64,000 nucleotides of DNA, from positions 1 through 64,000 of the forward strand of contig CACDTB010000001.1 in the NCBI GenBank assembly GCA_902555535.1, written 5' to 3'. Source of the DNA: an uncultured Pelagibacteraceae bacterium (GTDB lineage: Bacteria > Pseudomonadota > Alphaproteobacteria > Pelagibacterales > Pelagibacteraceae). Below the pieces are notes generated by a model, which was not told where the DNA came from, searched no databases, and saw only the letters and a program-made list of their open reading frames with translations. Every line of letters starts with the position of its first letter. Positions within the stretch are counted from its first letter, which is position 1. A program made the translations under genes and the position numbers. Below are positions 26,396 through 52,560 of this stretch, in pieces.

Positions 26396-27349
26396 ATGAA
26401 TGAACTTACAACAGACCTAAAATCGCTTCATGAGGCAACCTTAAATAACCTTAAAAGCTCAAAGGCAAATAATACTTTAAGAGCTTATAAATCTGACTTT
26501 AAAGATTTCGGAGCCTTTTGTGCAAAGCATGGATTAAATGCACTGCCAACAGAACCAAAAATAGTTTCCTTGTATCTAACTCATCTCTCAAAAAACTCAA
26601 AAATAAGCACTTTAAGACGAAGATTAGTATCAATAAGCATGGTTCATAGGCTTAAAGGGCATTATCTTGACACAAAACATCCAATCATCGTTGAAAATTT
26701 AATGGGAATAAGAAGGGTCAAAGGAAGTATTCAGAAAGGTAAAAAACCTATATTAATCAATCATTTAAAATTAATTATTAATGTAATTAATGAACAAAAA
26801 ACTGAAGAAATAAAAAAACATAGAGACAAATCAATAATCTTAATTGGCTTTGGAGGAGGCTTTAGAAGAACTGAGCTCATTTCAATTGATCATGAGGATT
26901 TAGAATTTGTTCCTGAGGGTCTAAAAATCACTATTAAAAGATCAAAAACTGATCAATTCGGAGAAGGAATGACCAAAGGACTGCCCTATTTCGAAAATGA
27001 AATTTACTGTCCTGTTACAAATCTAAAAAAATGGTTAGAAATTTCAAGAATTAAGTCTGGACCTATTTTTAGAAGATTTTCTAAAGGTTTATCATTAACA
27101 GACAAACGATTAACTGACCAATCTGTAGTTTTATTAATGAAGGAGTATTTAAAGTTAGCAGGTATCGAAAACAAAAATTTTGCAGGTCATAGTTTAAGGT
27201 CGGGTTTTGCAACAGTAGCTGCTGATTCAGGCGCTGATGAGCGAAGCATAATGGCTATGACAGGTCATAAAACAACACAAATGGTTAGAAGATATATTAG
27301 AGAGGCTAATTTATTTAAAAACAATGCATTAACTAAAATTAAATTTTAA
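26396..27349 (+). CDS. Tyrosine recombinase/integrase
   Basis: GGGFRRTELISI, HSLRSGFATVAADSGADERSIMAMTGHKTTQMVRRYI (R..HxxR..H..Y). Confidence 0.93.
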   Translation: MNELTTDLKSLHEATLNNLKSSKANNTLRAYKSDFKDFGAFCAKHGLNALPTEPKIVSLYLTHLSKNSKISTLRRRLVSISMVHRLKGHYLDTKHPIIVENLMGIRRVKGSIQKGKKPILINHLKLIINVINEQKTEEIKKHRDKSIILIGFGGGFRRTELISIDHEDLEFVPEGLKITIKRSKTDQFGEGMTKGLPYFENEIYCPVTNLKKWLEISRIKSGPIFRRFSKGLSLTDKRLTDQSVVLLMKEYLKLAGIENKNFAGHSLRSGFATVAADSGADERSIMAMTGHKTTQMVRRYIREANLFKNNALTKIKF

Positions 27350-45244: not shown

Positions 45245-46235
45245 TTTTAAATTTATCTTTCAATGTACAAACAGCTAAAGCAAATCGCAATGATCTGTTC
45301 CATTTTAATATTATTTCGTAGTTATCAAATACAATATAAGCTGGATTCAATGTTTCAGCATCAGGAATTATATCTTTATCTGGAGTTATAATTGCTACAT
45401 TAAATTTATTATACTTAACATTTATCTGATCATTATTTTTAATATATTTTCTAAAATATTTTAATTTTTTTTTATCATGCAGTTTTTTTGCTGAAATATT
45501 TAAATATTTTTTTGGAATATCCTCTGATAAATCTATTCTATAAAAACAAGGATTATTTGTTTTCCAACCTATTTGATTTAAATAATTTGATGCTGAAGCG
45601 TAAGCGTCATTATTATTTTTTAAATCTATATATCCATTCGTATCATGATCAATTGCATAATTTTTCATTGTAGAAGGCATAAATTGAAAAAAACCAAAAG
45701 CTCCAGCCCAAGACCCATATAATGTTTTGTAATCTATTTGCTTATTTTCTATTAATCTCAAAAGAATTAATAGTTCATTTGTAAAAAACTCTGATCTTCT
45801 TTTATCAAAGCTTAAGGTGGCTAAAGAGGACAAAATATCCATTTTACCAACGTATGTTCCAAAATTAGTCTCTATGCCCATTAGAGCTAGGAGTAACTCT
45901 CTTTCAATACCAAATTCGTCTTCAACTGAATCTATAAGTTTTGAATTTTTCTCGTAAAATTTTTTACCTAACGAAACTTTTTTTGATGATGTTCTTTTTG
46001 AAATATAAGTTTTAGTATCCTCATAAAATTCAGGTTGATATCTATCATATTTTATTACATCAGATAAAAATTTAGTATCTGACATAACTATATCAAAAGT
46101 TTTTTCTGAAATGTTATTTTCTAAAGCTATTTTTTTGAAATCTATTTTCCAATTTTCAAAATCTTTATTGATATCAGCAAATGTAAAATTAATAGAAATT
46201 ATAACAAAAAATAAAAAAAAACTAATTTGTTTCAT
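45234..46235 (-). CDS. Lytic murein transglycosylase (MltB family)
   Basis: ALMGIETNFGTYVG, AGAFGFFQFMPSTMKNYA. Confidence 0.93.
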   Translation of the reverse strand: MKQISFFLFFVIISINFTFADINKDFENWKIDFKKIALENNISEKTFDIVMSDTKFLSDVIKYDRYQPEFYEDTKTYISKRTSSKKVSLGKKFYEKNSKLIDSVEDEFGIERELLLALMGIETNFGTYVGKMDILSSLATLSFDKRRSEFFTNELLILLRLIENKQIDYKTLYGSWAGAFGFFQFMPSTMKNYAIDHDTNGYIDLKNNNDAYASASNYLNQIGWKTNNPCFYRIDLSEDIPKKYLNISAKKLHDKKKLKYFRKYIKNNDQINVKYNKFNVAIITPDKDIIPDAETLNPAYIVFDNYEIILKWNRSLRFALAVCTLKDKFKNEL

Positions 46236-47100
46236 GCAAATCCTTTAAATATATAATTACAGCAATCCAAATAAAAATAAAACTAACTAATTTTGTGATT
46301 GAAAAAGGCTCATTATAATAAAAATATCCTAATAAAAATTGAAAAGACGGGGTTATGTAAAAAATCATACCTGCTGGTCCTAAACCACAAAGTTCAACCC
46401 CTCTTACATATAAAAACAAAGGTATAACTGTCATTGGACCTGCAAGAAAAATAAATAGCATCATCGGTGGATCTGAAAATTGAAAATCATTATATCCTTT
46501 GCTGGCAATTAAATAAAAAGCTAACAACGCAAATGGTAATATAAATAAACTCTCAATCAAAAGACCTATATCGGTATCAACATTAATTTTTTTTCTTATC
46601 AGATTGTAAAAACTCCAGCTTAAAGCAACAATTAAACCAACCCATGGTAATGATTTGATACTTACTATTATTAAAAAAAGAATTGATAAAATGACTAATA
46701 AAATCGAAAAAACTCTTTTTTTATTTAGTTTTTCTTTAAAAAAAAAATATCCTAACATTACACTTAAAATTGGCATTATAAAATATCCAAAGCTTGCATC
46801 TATAATTCTATTAGTTGCTATTGCATATATCCAAACACCCCAATTAATAAAAATCAAAAATCCAGAAATAAATAAATAAAATAAATTAGATTTACTTTTA
46901 ATAATTTCAAAAAAAATACTCCATTTTGAAAACAAAAAAGTTGTTATTAATAATGTAAAAGCTGTCCATAAACATCTATGAACTACTAATTCGATATGTC
47001 CAATAAAAGCAATATATTTAAAATAAATGACACCAAAAAAACCCCACCAAAAAGATCCAAATCCTGCAAGTAATAAGCCTTTATTAAATTCTTTATTCAT
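46222..47100 (-). CDS. rarD: RarD/EamA family transporter
   Basis: GFGSFWWGFFGVIYFKYI, HRCLWTA RarD N-terminus. Confidence 0.85.
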   Translation of the reverse strand: MNKEFNKGLLLAGFGSFWWGFFGVIYFKYIAFIGHIELVVHRCLWTAFTLLITTFLFSKWSIFFEIIKSKSNLFYLFISGFLIFINWGVWIYAIATNRIIDASFGYFIMPILSVMLGYFFFKEKLNKKRVFSILLVILSILFLIIVSIKSLPWVGLIVALSWSFYNLIRKKINVDTDIGLLIESLFILPFALLAFYLIASKGYNDFQFSDPPMMLFIFLAGPMTVIPLFLYVRGVELCGLGPAGMIFYITPSFQFLLGYFYYNEPFSITKLVSFIFIWIAVIIYLKDLHETN

Positions 47101-47186
47101 AGGAAATTTTGGTTACTGTAATTAATAAGTTTATTAGACTATTTTATGGTTGAATTAAATAATTATAATTATAAAACCTTGCTCAC

Positions 47187-47225
47187 GGAGAGATGGCTGA
47201 GTGGTTGAAAGCACCGGTCTTGAAA
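47187..47225 (+). pseudogene. Truncated tRNA-Ser 5' fragment
   Basis: ggagagatggctgagtggttgaaagcaccggtcttgaaa identical to the intact tRNA-Ser at 52207, then diverges in the anticodon region. Confidence 0.93.
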
Positions 47226-47342
47226 TGCTAAGTTTACCCTACTCACTTTAAGACAATTCACATACTTTTTAAAACATAGTAGATTTTTCTAATATTTGAT
47301 TTTCTAAAAAATAAATGATTTTTGGCATTCTTTACCTACGAT

Positions 47343-47364
47343 ACTTGAAGTAAACTTGAAGTAA
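47343..47364 (+). repeat. Tandem 11-bp repeat (acttgaagtaa)x2, left end of island
   Basis: Read directly; matches 52111-52132 at 20/22 positions. Confidence 0.85.
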
Positions 47365-47379
47365 ATTATGTTTTTATTT

Positions 47380-47766
47380 TTATTTTTTTTTGAAATAATT
47401 AATTTTTATCCATCGAATATAATACCAACTATAAATTGCAAAAATTGGAATTAGTATAAAACTTAAGTACTTCATGATACCAGCAAAAGCCCACACCATA
47501 GGTTGAACTCTTAATTCAGCATCAATACAATTAGATAATTTTTCATCTTCTGTTCCTGTACGACCAAAATAATTATTTTTTTTACAATACTCAGTTAAAA
47601 AACCAATCTCATCTCCTGATGTATAAAATGGTGATTTTACATATTCGTGATTTTGATAAGTATTTCTTCCTAAAATTTCATTCACTGCCCAAATAGAAGT
47701 AAATAATCCTGGTAAAAATATTAATAAAAAAAATATGGTTAAAATAAATGTTTTAATAATTTTCAT
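47380..47766 (-). CDS. Small membrane protein (island gene 3)
   Basis: 128 aa with N- and C-terminal TM segments; same orientation, 23 bp after gene 2. Confidence 0.65.
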   Translation of the reverse strand: MKIIKTFILTIFFLLIFLPGLFTSIWAVNEILGRNTYQNHEYVKSPFYTSGDEIGFLTEYCKKNNYFGRTGTEDEKLSNCIDAELRVQPMVWAFAGIMKYLSFILIPIFAIYSWYYIRWIKINYFKKK

Positions 47767-47789
47767 TATTTAATTTTTTAAAAATTTTC

Positions 47790-50030
47790 TCATTCTGCTG
47801 ACCCAAAATAATATCTTGCATTCACAAACTGTCTTTTAGAAACTGCAATTCTATGCTTTAAATTAATATTTTTAATATTTTCATCTAAATCATTATTTTC
47901 ATTAAAAAAATCTTTGTATATTTTTTCCGAGGTCAAATTTATCTTATCTTTACAGAGATAACTGTTGAAATAATATAATTTAAATTTTTTAGACAATATT
48001 TTAAATAGTGAATCGTAATAATAAAAAGAAAAAGCTAGATTTAATTCTTTATTAACAAAATCCATAAAATATGTAACGCTGACAACATCAAAACTAGTAA
48101 ATAAATAATCTAATTTTTCAGATATTAAGTTTATATCGCACATATCCAAACTTTTTTGATAATTAAACCATAACTTAGGTCCAATTCTCATAACTTTACC
48201 TTCATTAAGTAGTTGTTCAGCATGTAAGCTAACTATTGAGGATATATCTGAACCAACGTTTAACATTTTAACTATTTTTGATTCATGAATTGCTTCTTCT
48301 GATTTATTAATAATTTTAAGTATATTTTGCTTCTGTGTTATGTACTTAAAATTTTTCTCTAGACTAATAGTATCTACACTTGATTTACCGTTCCAATAAA
48401 TTCCCTGTTCTTTTCCATATATTTTTACTAAAGCTCTTAATTCATAAAAATCAATATCTATACCTTTAAGCAATTGTCTTGTTTTGATTGAATTAAAAAC
48501 TTCAATTAATTTAAGTGTTTTTAATTTTTTATTCTCAAAGATTTTAATTATTGTGTCTAAAATTATTTTATTTTCTTGTTTAAATCTTAGGTATTTCAAA
48601 TGTTTGTGGGTTCCTTTTGCTGATAACCATAAATTTTGATTTGAATTAATTTTGTAATCAGCAACCAAACGTTTCATGGAAAAGGAATTTTTACTTGGTG
48701 AATTGTTTAGTATTTCATAAATATCTTTCCAATAAATTCCTTTTGGAAACTTAAGCACTATGTGTGATATTTCTTCAGTTGCATTTAACTTAAGTGGGAA
48801 AATTTTATTTTTTTCATGATGAATTAATTTTTCATCATCCATGAATTTTAAAGCACTCTTAGCCACATCATTATCAAAGCCAAACAATGATTTTAATTCT
48901 AATTTAAAAATTTCCTCATCTATACCAAATGGTAATTCTAAGAATATTTCGTTTAATAATTGAGGGTCAAAATCTTTCTTTAATAAAAGCTCTGGAGTTT
49001 TATAATGATCATAATCAACATTGGTTAGATCTGCAAGAAATTGGGTAAGTCTATCACCTGTTATGTCTTTTGATCTATTTTTAACTGTATCTGTAAAAAA
49101 ATCGTCAAGTAATTCAAATTTTTGATGAAAACCAATGCTTTGAATGTTTATTAAGTAATTTTTTAATTCTGTATTGTTAAACAACGAATTTAATCTTACC
49201 TTATTTTTTATAATGAGGATTAATTGTCTAACTCTTTCCCTTGTTAATCTTTTTTTATTTTCAATTTTAAATAATTCGTCAGCTGTACCTTCTAAGGTTA
49301 AGACTTTAGTTTTGTAACCATAATAAGTAGAAAATATAAATTTTTCTCTTTCATTCAATTTCTCTAATATATAATCAATATTCTCAATAATTTTTTTCTC
49401 AATTAAACTTGGGTCTGTATCATTTGTAATTTCAATATCTCTTGATTCCTTTGAATTAATTAATTCGTTTATAGCATCAGGATTACTGTATTGATGGATT
49501 AGTTCAATTGTTTTGGCTCCAATTGACCGCTGATTTCGACAATCAGTTAAAAGTTCTTCTGTGAGTAAATCCTTAATTTTTATTTTTCTCTCAAGCTTAT
49601 TTTCAATTCGTCTTAGCGATTTTTGTTCATTACTATTTAATAAATAAAAAATAAGATTATTTTCTTTATGTTCTTCATAGTTATTAATTTCAGATGTATT
49701 AATCGATCTAATATGTTTACTTGACTGATAAACATTATTATTTTTCCAACTTTGATAGCTACTTACTTCGTTTTCAAAAAAAAGACTTAATTTATATGAT
49801 TTTCCATATAATTCATTAAATCTTGTAATTAGTTCATCAATTTCAAAAATGAACTTATGTTTAAAACTATTTAATTTACCAAGATCTGATTTTTTAATTT
49901 TAATTAGTTCTCCCAATGTTTTGATTTGATTCACAGAAAAAAAATTACTTAGATCATCGGATAAACTTAAAATATCTAAATTAGTAGATAGTAAATTATT
50001 TAAAATTTGATCATCACTGTTTTGCATCAA
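47790..50030 (-). CDS. Large protein with RNAP-alphaCTD-like HhH and sigma-70 region-4-like HTH (island gene 2)
   Basis: IKTLGELIKIKKSDLGKLNSFKHKFIFEIDEL (alphaCTD-like); LNEREKFIFSTYYGYKTKVLTLEGTADELFKIENKKRLTRERVRQLI (sigma r4-like). Confidence 0.75.
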   Translation of the reverse strand: MMQNSDDQILNNLLSTNLDILSLSDDLSNFFSVNQIKTLGELIKIKKSDLGKLNSFKHKFIFEIDELITRFNELYGKSYKLSLFFENEVSSYQSWKNNNVYQSSKHIRSINTSEINNYEEHKENNLIFYLLNSNEQKSLRRIENKLERKIKIKDLLTEELLTDCRNQRSIGAKTIELIHQYSNPDAINELINSKESRDIEITNDTDPSLIEKKIIENIDYILEKLNEREKFIFSTYYGYKTKVLTLEGTADELFKIENKKRLTRERVRQLILIIKNKVRLNSLFNNTELKNYLINIQSIGFHQKFELLDDFFTDTVKNRSKDITGDRLTQFLADLTNVDYDHYKTPELLLKKDFDPQLLNEIFLELPFGIDEEIFKLELKSLFGFDNDVAKSALKFMDDEKLIHHEKNKIFPLKLNATEEISHIVLKFPKGIYWKDIYEILNNSPSKNSFSMKRLVADYKINSNQNLWLSAKGTHKHLKYLRFKQENKIILDTIIKIFENKKLKTLKLIEVFNSIKTRQLLKGIDIDFYELRALVKIYGKEQGIYWNGKSSVDTISLEKNFKYITQKQNILKIINKSEEAIHESKIVKMLNVGSDISSIVSLHAEQLLNEGKVMRIGPKLWFNYQKSLDMCDINLISEKLDYLFTSFDVVSVTYFMDFVNKELNLAFSFYYYDSLFKILSKKFKLYYFNSYLCKDKINLTSEKIYKDFFNENNDLDENIKNINLKHRIAVSKRQFVNARYYFGSAE

Positions 50031-52068
50031 AAGTTATTATTAATTGTTTTTTTAGTTTATTAAATTCTTTGTAAGATCTTCCAACTCCATAATTATTGTG
50101 AATAAAATTAAAATCAAGTAAAGGTAAATTATTAAAAGTATTGTTTTCGTTGATAGTTTGAAAGGATGGAATTATTCCAGTTTCGTTATAAAATTTTTTG
50201 CAATACATCAAAAATTTATCAATAAAATATTTTTCATTTACTTCTCTCTCAAAAGGTAGCGCTGTATTGCAATATCTGTAATAAGAGCCAAAAAGTGTAT
50301 TGATTTGATCGGAGGAAATATTATTTAAGTTATCTTCAAGATTTTCAATCTTTGGAATTTCTTCATATTTCTCATAGTAACTTCTTAATACTGACACAGC
50401 CTCCTCTAATTCTAATAAATTATATTTTTGATCTTCTAATAATTTTAAAACTTGTGCCGCTCCTTTAAAATTCCAATTAACCTGCATCGATGAATCATAA
50501 TGTTTTTCTGATAAATTATTTGAATCTTTCTCGATATTTATATTTGGGTTAATATTCGATTTATCTATAACCTGTTCCTCGTAGGCTTTTTGAAATGATT
50601 TAACTTCATTAATTCTTGATACCGATCCTACAAAATCAAATACATCAACAAATTCTTTTTTATTAGTCCTTCTTAATCCTCTGCCTAATTGTTGTAACCA
50701 AATCAATTTAGAGTTTGTAGTTCTTAAGAATGCTAACAGGTTAGTTTCTGGAATATCAATTCCCTCATTAAATAGATTACAGGTAAGTATATATCTGTAA
50801 TTACCTTCTCTAAATTCTCTTATATTATTTCTTCTTTGATCTCCGTCCATACCATTAGAATAAGCATATGTTGCTTTACCTGGTGGAAAATATTTTATTA
50901 AATGTTTTATGTGTTTTATGTTACGACAAAAAACAATTGCTTTACAATTTTCAATGGTTTCTGCTTTTTTTTCTAAAGCCTGAACCATTTTTTCATCTTT
51001 TTCTTTTATAAATAAACTTCTATCCAGATCATCTAAAGTAAAACCTTTTTCTAAAGCATCTATTTTTTGCTGACTTACGTCATGTCCATGTACTTGATAT
51101 TTGGGGAAAGCTAACCATCGATGCTTTAAAGCCCAGTAAAGATCATACCTACCCATATGACCTTCTTTACCACCAAAATAATTTAGAACATCTCTATTAT
51201 CAGTTCTAAATGGTGTTGCTGTTAAGCCTATCAAAAGTTTTGGATTAAAATGTTTGACAACTTTAGAATAGGTATTTGCAGGTACATGATGGGCTTCATC
51301 GACAACTATAATATCAAAATCCTCTTTACTAAAATTTTTCAAATTTGAATAAATTGTATCAAATACACCAAACATAAAATCTGTTTTATCTTCTGGTGTA
51401 TAACCTGCTACTGCGCCAGAGAAAGAATAATTTCCTATTCCAAAAATATTTTTAAAAGAAATAACAGTTTGTGTTAATATTTCTATTTGATGAGCTAAAA
51501 ATAATATTTTTAACTTTTTTTCTTTAAGTAATTCTTTAATAATAAAAGCTACAGTATATGTTTTCCCTAAACCTGTTGCTAACTCTATTAAAATTTTTTT
51601 TTTATTATTTTTTGTAAATTCATTAATGCATTGATTTACAATATCCATTTGATATGGATGAGGTTTAATTTTTTTACCAATTTCACTTGTATTTAATTCA
51701 AATAAATCTTTAAGTTTATTTCTGTCAATTAAATCAACACCTAGTTTAAAAGCTCTATATTCAACTTCGGAAGTAAAATATGTATTTGTAACTAAAATCT
51801 GATTTTTTACATTAGCTAACTTGCCTCCTGTAATTAATTGATTTAAATCCTCTACAGTACATTTATTGGTTATTTTTCTATGTTTACATTCAATCGCAAA
51901 TTTTTTTTTATCTTTTGTACAAAAAATATCTACACCTCCATCCCCATGTCTATATTCTGATCCTACTTTAGTTACTTCTACATTATCCCAACCTGATTTT
52001 TCAAATAATTGAGCTACAAATAATTCAAAATCACTTTTGCTTAGATTGTCTATGTCTACAAATTTCAT
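50014..52068 (-). CDS. Mrr-like restriction endonuclease domain fused to SF2 DEAD/DEAH helicase (island gene 1)
   Basis: N-term GDGGVDIFCTKDKKKFAIECKHR; helicase ELATGLGKTYT, VDEAHH, GLTATPFR, QQLGRGLRR. Confidence 0.92.
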   Translation of the reverse strand: MKFVDIDNLSKSDFELFVAQLFEKSGWDNVEVTKVGSEYRHGDGGVDIFCTKDKKKFAIECKHRKITNKCTVEDLNQLITGGKLANVKNQILVTNTYFTSEVEYRAFKLGVDLIDRNKLKDLFELNTSEIGKKIKPHPYQMDIVNQCINEFTKNNKKKILIELATGLGKTYTVAFIIKELLKEKKLKILFLAHQIEILTQTVISFKNIFGIGNYSFSGAVAGYTPEDKTDFMFGVFDTIYSNLKNFSKEDFDIIVVDEAHHVPANTYSKVVKHFNPKLLIGLTATPFRTDNRDVLNYFGGKEGHMGRYDLYWALKHRWLAFPKYQVHGHDVSQQKIDALEKGFTLDDLDRSLFIKEKDEKMVQALEKKAETIENCKAIVFCRNIKHIKHLIKYFPPGKATYAYSNGMDGDQRRNNIREFREGNYRYILTCNLFNEGIDIPETNLLAFLRTTNSKLIWLQQLGRGLRRTNKKEFVDVFDFVGSVSRINEVKSFQKAYEEQVIDKSNINPNINIEKDSNNLSEKHYDSSMQVNWNFKGAAQVLKLLEDQKYNLLELEEAVSVLRSYYEKYEEIPKIENLEDNLNNISSDQINTLFGSYYRYCNTALPFEREVNEKYFIDKFLMYCKKFYNETGIIPSFQTINENNTFNNLPLLDFNFIHNNYGVGRSYKEFNKLKKQLIITFDAKQ

Positions 52069-52110
52069 ATGTTTAAAATCTTAAATACATATTTTGGTTT
52101 TAACAGGATA

Positions 52111-52132
52111 ACTTGAAGCAAACTTGAAGCAA
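52111..52132 (+). repeat. Tandem 11-bp repeat (acttgaagcaa)x2, right end of island
   Basis: Read directly; 43 bp upstream of the helicase start. Confidence 0.85.
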
Positions 52133-52206
52133 AACGAAAACTTTATGAAAAAAATGACCTGTTTTTTAGTTGAATTTTACAATTATACTTATAAAACGGT
52201 GCTCAC

Positions 52207-52296
52207 GGAGAGATGGCTGAGTGGTTGAAAGCACCGGTCTTGAAAACCGGCAAAGGGGCAACTCTTTCCTGGGTTCGAATCCCAGTCTCTCCGCCA
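52207..52296 (+). tRNA. tRNA-Ser (UGA)
   Basis: ggagagatggctgag...ccggtcttgaaaaccgg...gggttcgaatcccagtctctccgcca, long variable arm. Confidence 0.97.
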
Positions 52297-52560
52297 CTAT
52301 TTTTCAAAATAATCAAAATTTTTAAATAAATCAGTCACATTATTTTTTTCAAAAATAAAATCTGTCTCTAAACCGTTTAAAAAATTGTATAAATTTGAAT
52401 CATCAATATCCAATAATTTTTCTAATTTCATTAAATCATCATCACTTAAGTCATTAATATATTTTTTAACAAAAGCTCCTAAAAGTTTATCCATTTCTTT
52501 AGTGCCCCTGTAATTTGATCGATAAATAATTTTTTTTTTTAATTCGTCTATATTGATCAT
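52297..52560 (-). CDS. sdhE: Succinate dehydrogenase assembly factor (SdhE/DUF339)
   Basis: KKIIYRSNYRGTKEMDKLLGAFV pattern. Confidence 0.82.
   Translation of the reverse strand: MINIDELKKKIIYRSNYRGTKEMDKLLGAFVKKYINDLSDDDLMKLEKLLDIDDSNLYNFLNGLETDFIFEKNNVTDLFKNFDYFEK

Follow-up and report, generated by a model that had tools for sequence, protein, structure and literature searches.

How does a gene island come to lie, with precise ends, inside a transfer RNA (tRNA) gene when none of its own genes could have put it there? The question is raised by a locus in the window, the 64,000-nucleotide stretch of contig CACDTB010000001.1 from an uncultured Pelagibacteraceae (SAR11) ocean bacterium that we analysed, where an island of 5,020 bp (47226-52245) occupies the tRNA-Ser(TGA) gene. 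We consider it likely that this is a non-autonomous cargo island, similar to a cis-mobilizable element (CIME) and belonging to a satellite-like family, and that it is moved by integrases recognising matching arms near its ends.

The outline of the island is given by a perfect direct repeat of 46 bp, found exactly where the initial annotation had placed it (47180-47225 and 52200-52245). The block turns out to be the 3' part of a longer repeat of 87 bp with 90% identity (47139-47225 and 52159-52245), which also spans the tRNA promoter region. As the annotation had described, the right copy runs on into an intact tRNA, the single tRNA-Ser(TGA) reported by ARAGORN (52207-52296, plus strand), the left copy diverges past the anticodon loop (..CTTGAAA), and the genes in between share one orientation, the three open reading frames (ORFs) of 128, 746 and 684 amino acids (aa) all being encoded on the minus strand. 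An exact 46-bp repeat that ends at an anticodon loop is no chance event, and the same arrangement of repeat and tRNA is found again at the same place in at least 15 other Pelagibacterales genomes.

To see what the locus looks like without the island, we used the left island end as a query against 397 Pelagibacterales genomes, most of which give one tRNA-Ser match only. Empty sites, in which rarD/EamA directly precedes the intact tRNA, are present at loci L060 (genome G251), L056 (G153) and L057 (G181). When the window flanks are joined at 47225/52246, they align with L060 at 97.6% identity over 170 bp and, on a longer span, at 86.1% without gaps over 2,125 bp, and closing the island in this way leaves one intact tRNA-Ser(TGA). 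The initial annotation had read the repeats as attL and attR, had suggested comparing the locus among relatives, and had held that a lack of empty-site variants would speak against an island; many relatives are empty and others carry abundant alternative cargo, which supports the island reading. A displaced tRNA fragment, a restored tRNA and an empty site in relatives, the features of a tRNA-targeting island, are thus all found here.

The same comparison reveals which copy is native. The promoter region now left of the island (47139-47186, plus strand) differs at no position from the promoters of the empty sites L060 and L056 and at 1 from that of L057, whereas the promoter at the right end (52159-52206, plus strand), which is of the type found in other islands, has 9-10 mismatches to the native promoters. 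Because the native promoter sequence is preserved on the left and altered at 9 positions on the right, the left copy represents the tRNA's native 5' half in a displaced position (the attL core, 47187-47225, plus strand, ending at the anticodon loop CTTGAAA, as the repeat and the relatives' loci indicate), and it was the island that brought the promoter and the 5' half now completing the tRNA. This island-borne 5' half (the attR core, 52207-52245, plus strand, from the repeat and ARAGORN), which includes the island's last base at 52245, is joined to the native 3' half (52246-52296, plus strand, from the empty-site comparison). Restoration from the 5' side is uncommon, 5' fragments having been reported in 159 of 3,919 Islander islands (PMC4383910).

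Just inside both ends, a motif search finds a 23-bp tandem motif (two copies of an 11-bp unit, ACTTGAAGyAA) on the plus strand, at 47343-47365 and 52111-52133. The left instance, ACTTGAAGTAA ACTTGAAGTAA, begins 117 bp inside the left crossover, beyond a conserved left inner end that starts with the island's first base (47226-47342); this P'-like arm region keeps about 115 nt among islands with unrelated cargo. The right instance, ACTTGAAGCAA ACTTGAAGCAA, begins 135 bp before the right crossover, next to a degenerate copy of a right-end box, TAGGATTTTATAGGAT (52094-52109, plus strand), which sequence comparison suggests as a possible accessory-factor site. The motif has two matches only in the 927-kb draft genome, both of them these island ends, and the chance expectation in the window, with up to 3 mismatches, is 0.17 matches. 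Searched in public genomes, the same motif pointed to the tRNA-Ser locus in three further Pelagibacteraceae (L005, L007 and L008); matches in L004, L006, L009 and L010 were taken as chance, there being no tRNA at those places.

The island is one of a family. At tRNA-Ser(TGA), we read 16 further islands or island parts, in genome samples that hold one genome per species, mostly drafts, and with several island boundaries read by eye. Common to them are the left inner end or variants of it, a TAGGATTTTATAGGAT-like box in the right end, and paired repeats, and they differ in their cargo, which ranges from caspase-domain proteins, a trypsin-like protease and MORN proteins to an MmeI-like restriction-modification enzyme and a set of glycosyltransferase, phosphoesterase and diacylglycerol kinase. 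When the family's 397 genomes were searched for the right-end box, it matched at 90 places, spread over 66 genomes, compared to 9 in a reversed control, and many of the matches lie either at tRNA-Leu(TAA) or at the 5' end of a gene for a 75-aa protein, which are two further sites. Arrays of two or three islands are common. By script we delimited 45 islands with a median length of 2.46 kb, 44 of which are distinct because L046 and L008 are one contig; their cargo adds C5 methyltransferases, a Schlafen-type helicase and a type I restriction-modification gene set, which from gene sizes and order probably belongs to L147.

Two islands that share the same 3.2 kb (L042 in G150 and L048 in G315) agree at 99.4% in a gap-free alignment of 3,171 bp, whereas identity between the flanks of the two genomes is only 73.1% (2.9 kb) and 78.0% (2.5 kb). 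As judged from these identities, the pair is a case of recent horizontal transfer of an integrase-less island. Its cargo, a GT4 glycosyltransferase, a metallophosphoesterase and a diacylglycerol kinase, is possibly a membrane-lipid remodelling set. Other features of the family may be recorded alongside. Peptidase_C14 caspase-domain proteins with starts resembling signal peptides are frequent at tRNA-Ser (L005, L008 and L183, the last by its N-terminus only), and the Leu-site island L139 (2419-6075) has six small proteins in a row with pilin-like N-terminal methylation motifs, one other ORF standing among them. The third target is a conserved 75-aa ORF with no match in Pfam, whose 5' end the islands replace (L129, L134, L137, L144-L146, L148 and L186).

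We compared 9-mers from the left and right tandem repeats in the 29 distinct islands in which the script located both. In the best comparison of left with right, the two ends of an island differ by 0.17 mismatches on average, with at most one mismatch in 28 of the 29, whereas ends taken from different islands of one site, left against right, differ by 2.79 on average and reach at most one mismatch in 17% of cases; shuffling the right ends among islands gave a permutation p<5e-5, kinship among islands having been removed only for the duplicate and, in a second run, for the 99.4% pair. The start distances are near constant as well, at 117 (left) and 134-135 (right) for the Ser site and about 126 and 142 for the Leu site; few pairs were recovered by script at the 75-aa gene because spacing differs there. 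Paired arm repeats thus flank a core at set distances, as in an attP. From their position, their pairing and the predicted N-terminal domain of the integrase described below, it is most likely that a tyrosine integrase binds the tandem repeats as arm-type sites.

No such enzyme is encoded by the island itself. There is no recombinase among its three proteins, and the integrase that Islander looks for inside an island is absent. The sole PF00589 match in the draft genome is a 325-aa protein (window 26780-27307), whose designation as Xer-like follows from its size and near-universal presence; its gene is situated some 20 kb to the left of the displaced tRNA half, and about 17-20 kb from the same site in several relatives. 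Among 34 carrier genomes, no PF00589 match falls inside any cargo island, and the matches elsewhere in these genomes are mostly Xer alone, the complete genomes G066 and G067 having only the Xer of about 325 aa. PF00589 missed the divergent integrase of G144 and is thus not a complete test, but a profile of the integrase family, which does find the G144 enzyme, gave no match in G000, G066 and G067 either. Serine recombinases were found in none of 28 genomes. Candidates for a helper integrase near tRNA-Ser in the PF00589 survey were rejected, as the integrases sat at other tRNAs and lacked the repeats: tRNA-Leu(TAG) (L085, L089-L091, L093 and L095), tRNA-Gly, tRNA-Met and tRNA-Pro. Those beside tRNA-Leu(TAG) in L089-L091, L093 and L095 are phage-like and probably belong to prophages, without the repeats described here.

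Integrases do occur in relatives with the same ends. A query of IMG/VR for the tRNA-Leu 5' half lacking the tRNA continuation returned contigs with the end architecture of the islands. One of these, L154, has exact 99-bp terminal repeats and is therefore a circle of 7,700 bp; it encodes a 545-aa integrase beside an attP, a primase-helicase (AEP/DUF5906) and a RusA-like protein, and neither capsid nor terminase was recognised among its proteins scanned. Relatives of this integrase were found in 6 of the 399 genomes searched at genus level and in 4 of the 397 searched at order level, and the integrase-bearing elements, of 8-10 kb, occupy the same sites as the cargo islands and are rarer than these. 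L183 is located at tRNA-Ser(TGA) and forms a tandem with a cargo island that has ACTTGAAGT/C as its right repeat and encodes an 863-aa protein starting like caspase-domain proteins; L181, L182 and L184 are located at tRNA-Leu(TAA), where L184 follows two cargo islands; and L186, whose integrase is split, is located at the 75-aa gene, so that all three sites hold both kinds. Right repeats are also held in common between the two: ACTTGAGAC by L183 and the cargo islands L041 and L044, ACCAGCACA by L181 and the second island of L139, and ACTAGAAAC by L182 and L132, L140 and L143. The left repeats of the integrase-bearing elements extend into the first codons of the integrase gene.

A predicted model of the L154 integrase (mean predicted local distance difference test, pLDDT, 78.8; predicted template modelling score, pTM, 0.44) was compared with known folds. 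Residues 154-530, approximately, match lambda integrase and Xer proteins (VIA Z 13-16), and residues 29-124 or 29-140, at the N-terminus, resemble arm-type binding domains, namely those of HPI, HAI7 and P4-like integrases (3jtz, Z 9.6; 3ju0, Z 9.3; 3rmp, Z 8.9). Z values just above 8 call for caution, yet the whole domain is covered and a domain of this kind is expected, so that we consider it a predicted arm-binding-like domain. The integrase profile had no match among PDB sequences, although the fold search was clear. No match to the L154 integrase was found among cultured phages (INPHARED), and the L183 integrase as a single query found no viral relative; the family profile matched 8 viral contigs. 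Further IMG/VR contigs (L155, L158-L166, L168, L170, L171 and L173) have a 5' half like that of tRNA-Leu(TAA) with different upstream tandem repeats, of GTGTCCTA type in most, and are possibly another element or phage group with the same 5'-restoring strategy. In others with an intact tRNA-Ser core (L061-L084), a tRNA scan found several with tRNA clusters like those of large phages.

Taken together, these observations suggest the following mechanism. A circle carrying the promoter and 5' half of tRNA-Ser(TGA) would enter the cell and recombine at or beside the anticodon loop, pushing the native promoter and 5' half to the left and rebuilding the tRNA from the island-borne 5' half and the native 3' half, an outcome that the empty-site comparison shows. 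The tyrosine integrase would be supplied by the rarer 8-10-kb elements and would bind the tandem arms. Given that sites, architecture and, in three lineages, arm sequence are shared, the arms are likely served by the integrases of those elements. Mobilization could take place in trans; alternatively, it could act in cis, with islands accreting into a tandem array and being excised jointly, as for CIMEs. What we infer, then, is mobilization of the cargo islands together with their excision, arm binding and packaging.

Several points weigh against this mechanism. No integrase-bearing element was found with the window island's own repeat, ACTTGAAG, and no matching repeat was found in L184. Neither excision, nor a circle, nor packaging of a cargo island was seen, and neither the right-end box nor the Ser attP pattern had a match in IMG/VR. 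The left repeats in the integrase-bearing elements are irregular and were read by eye, and the function of the arms is deduced from their position and pairing and from a predicted domain. At 69% completeness, the window genome might have a helper that the assembly lacks, and the integrases are much rarer than the islands (6/399 and 4/397, compared to the box in 66/397), which implies that a helper is seldom resident.

The strongest of the alternatives, although an unlikely one, is that the islands are decayed relics, dead remnants of integrase-bearing elements whose recombinase and replication genes were deleted and which are now only inherited vertically. Islands without a recombinase would be in line with such decay, as would the restriction-modification island L054, which carries the first 48 left-end bases of the integrase-bearing L183 in the manner of a deletion derivative, the erosion of some left halves, and the array L049, which appears truncated; for the window island, no such integrase-bearing parent was found. 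Relics are, however, difficult to reconcile with both repeats being kept and matched in 28 of 29 islands, with a same-cargo island at 99.4% identity in hosts whose flanks have diverged to 73-78%, and with the empty and differently occupied sites of related genomes, and the cargo consists of whole gene sets rather than satellite leftovers. Considerably less probable still is homologous recombination, in which the promoter, tRNA half and conserved ends (about 150 bp) would do no more than anchor a RecA-dependent swap of cargo between cells, with no site-specific recombination involved. Such exchange could be seeded by the repeats of 46-87 bp and the conserved ends around unrelated cargo, and it may add to the swapping, but it leaves unexplained the island-specific, matched tandem repeats at fixed distances and the integrase-bearing relatives that have these same ends and occupy the same three sites; moreover, the left copy is native and the right island-type up to the 46-bp block, which fits a crossover in the anticodon loop. 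That the host Xer recombinase moves the islands, as in XerCD-dependent elements, is very improbable even though most carriers yielded no other PF00589 protein, as the cores, judged by their sequences, are anticodon stem-loops or coding sequence with no shared dif-like site, the family has its own integrase with a predicted arm-binding-like domain, and Xer-dependent elements are not known to require arm repeats at a distance.

Returning to movement by integrases of arm-matched elements, one could extend the idea to a SAR11 trans-mobilization network, in which a variable arm code on one core site sorts the islands into groups, each served by the integrase of a rare satellite-like element. We give this extension an even chance. 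If true, the code would let neighbouring islands of one array move independently, and the three sites would be entry points for defence and nutrient genes in very abundant ocean bacteria.

The cargo of the window island is itself suggestive of defence. The 684-aa protein (50014-52068, minus strand) contains Mrr_cat (4.8e-18) and a ResIII/SF2 helicase domain (1.3e-36), and it matches mREase_IV in PADLOC (1.1e-47) and 7clg in the PDB (9e-43), from which it would be a type IV/RadD-like restriction helicase. Its gene overlaps by 17 bp with that of the 746-aa protein (47790-50030, minus strand), for which the matches are weak to moderate: the N-terminus resembles the C-terminal domain of the RNA polymerase alpha subunit, and a region is 25.6% identical (6e-17) to a sigma-factor-like helix-turn-helix (HTH) protein of enterobacterial plasmids, which there adjoins an AAA ATPase. 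This protein is putative defence or regulatory cargo, and the pair of Mrr-helicase and sigma-like HTH protein probably constitutes a restriction-type, anti-phage defence cassette. The 128-aa protein (47380-47766, minus strand), a probable membrane protein, has no match in Pfam and a close homologue in the L045 island (84.5% nucleotide identity over 388 bp). A 966-aa Mrr_cat_2 and ResIII helicase with the domain order of the 684-aa protein adjoins an integrase-bearing element in the IMG/VR contig L172 (9405-12305). Outside the island, rarD/EamA (46222-47100) is the left neighbour, and sdhE (52297-52560) and then recG, named from its sequence, are the right neighbours.

SAR11 genomes are streamlined, and recognisable mobile elements are usually absent from them. 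The island family would provide a concrete route for accessory genes, in the form of precisely bounded islands that hold between one and a few genes and no recombinase, and whose cargo includes restriction systems, caspase-like proteins and the cassette of glycosyltransferase, phosphoesterase and diacylglycerol kinase. A constant core with variable arms also provides a natural series for the evolution of integrase specificity. Tools that require an integrase or a 2-kb minimum overlook such islands; Islander rejects islands without an integrase or shorter than 2 kb (PMC4383910), and would therefore miss them. In the literature searched, which left most subscription journals outside, we found no description of integrase-less, arm-matched SAR11 islands.

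How, finally, does the island compare with known systems? With the tRNA-gene islands of the Islander type, it shares the tRNA gene with a displaced 5' fragment and the crossover in the anticodon loop. Phage-inducible chromosomal islands (PICIs) and phage-inducible chromosomal minimalist islands (PICMIs) encode an integrase and regulators; the window island resembles them as a small integrated element thought to depend on a helper, but encodes neither integrase nor satellite regulators. Tycheposons and virion-encapsidated integrative mobilizable elements (VEIMEs) are marine integrative elements, cargo-carrying or satellite-like, with a tyrosine recombinase and tRNA targets. They are named in PMC10803314 and PMC11389934. 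Unlike a tycheposon, the window island lacks a tyrosine recombinase of its own, which its integrase-bearing relatives do have, and in contrast to both groups the part of the tRNA that it restores is the 5' one, not the 3' one. It is possible that the integrase-bearing members are the tycheposons or VEIMEs of SAR11; with regard to the latter, the 7,700-bp circle L154 comes from a collection of viral contigs (IMG/VR), in which no cargo-island end was found. Miniature inverted-repeat transposable elements (MITEs) and clusters of attC sites lacking integron-integrases (CALINs) are likewise non-autonomous, their recombinase being encoded elsewhere (PMC11389934), but the SAR11 islands have neither terminal inverted repeats nor attC, and instead combine lambda-like arms around a tRNA core with whole-gene cargo.

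The closest likeness is to CIMEs, which are defined by keeping attL and attR while lacking genes for integration and transfer (PMC5704250). The window island retains attL and attR and has neither recombination nor transfer genes, and islands of its kind occur in tandem with integrase-bearing relatives, an accretion with an autonomous element that is seen in L183 and L184 and not in the window. CIMEs are described as decay products of integrative and conjugative elements (ICEs) and integrative and mobilizable elements (IMEs), whereas the SAR11 partners are satellite-like, with a primase-helicase and no recognised conjugation genes. Two further differences set the SAR11 islands apart from CIMEs: they outnumber their autonomous partners, and matched, variable arm repeats tie them to particular integrases.

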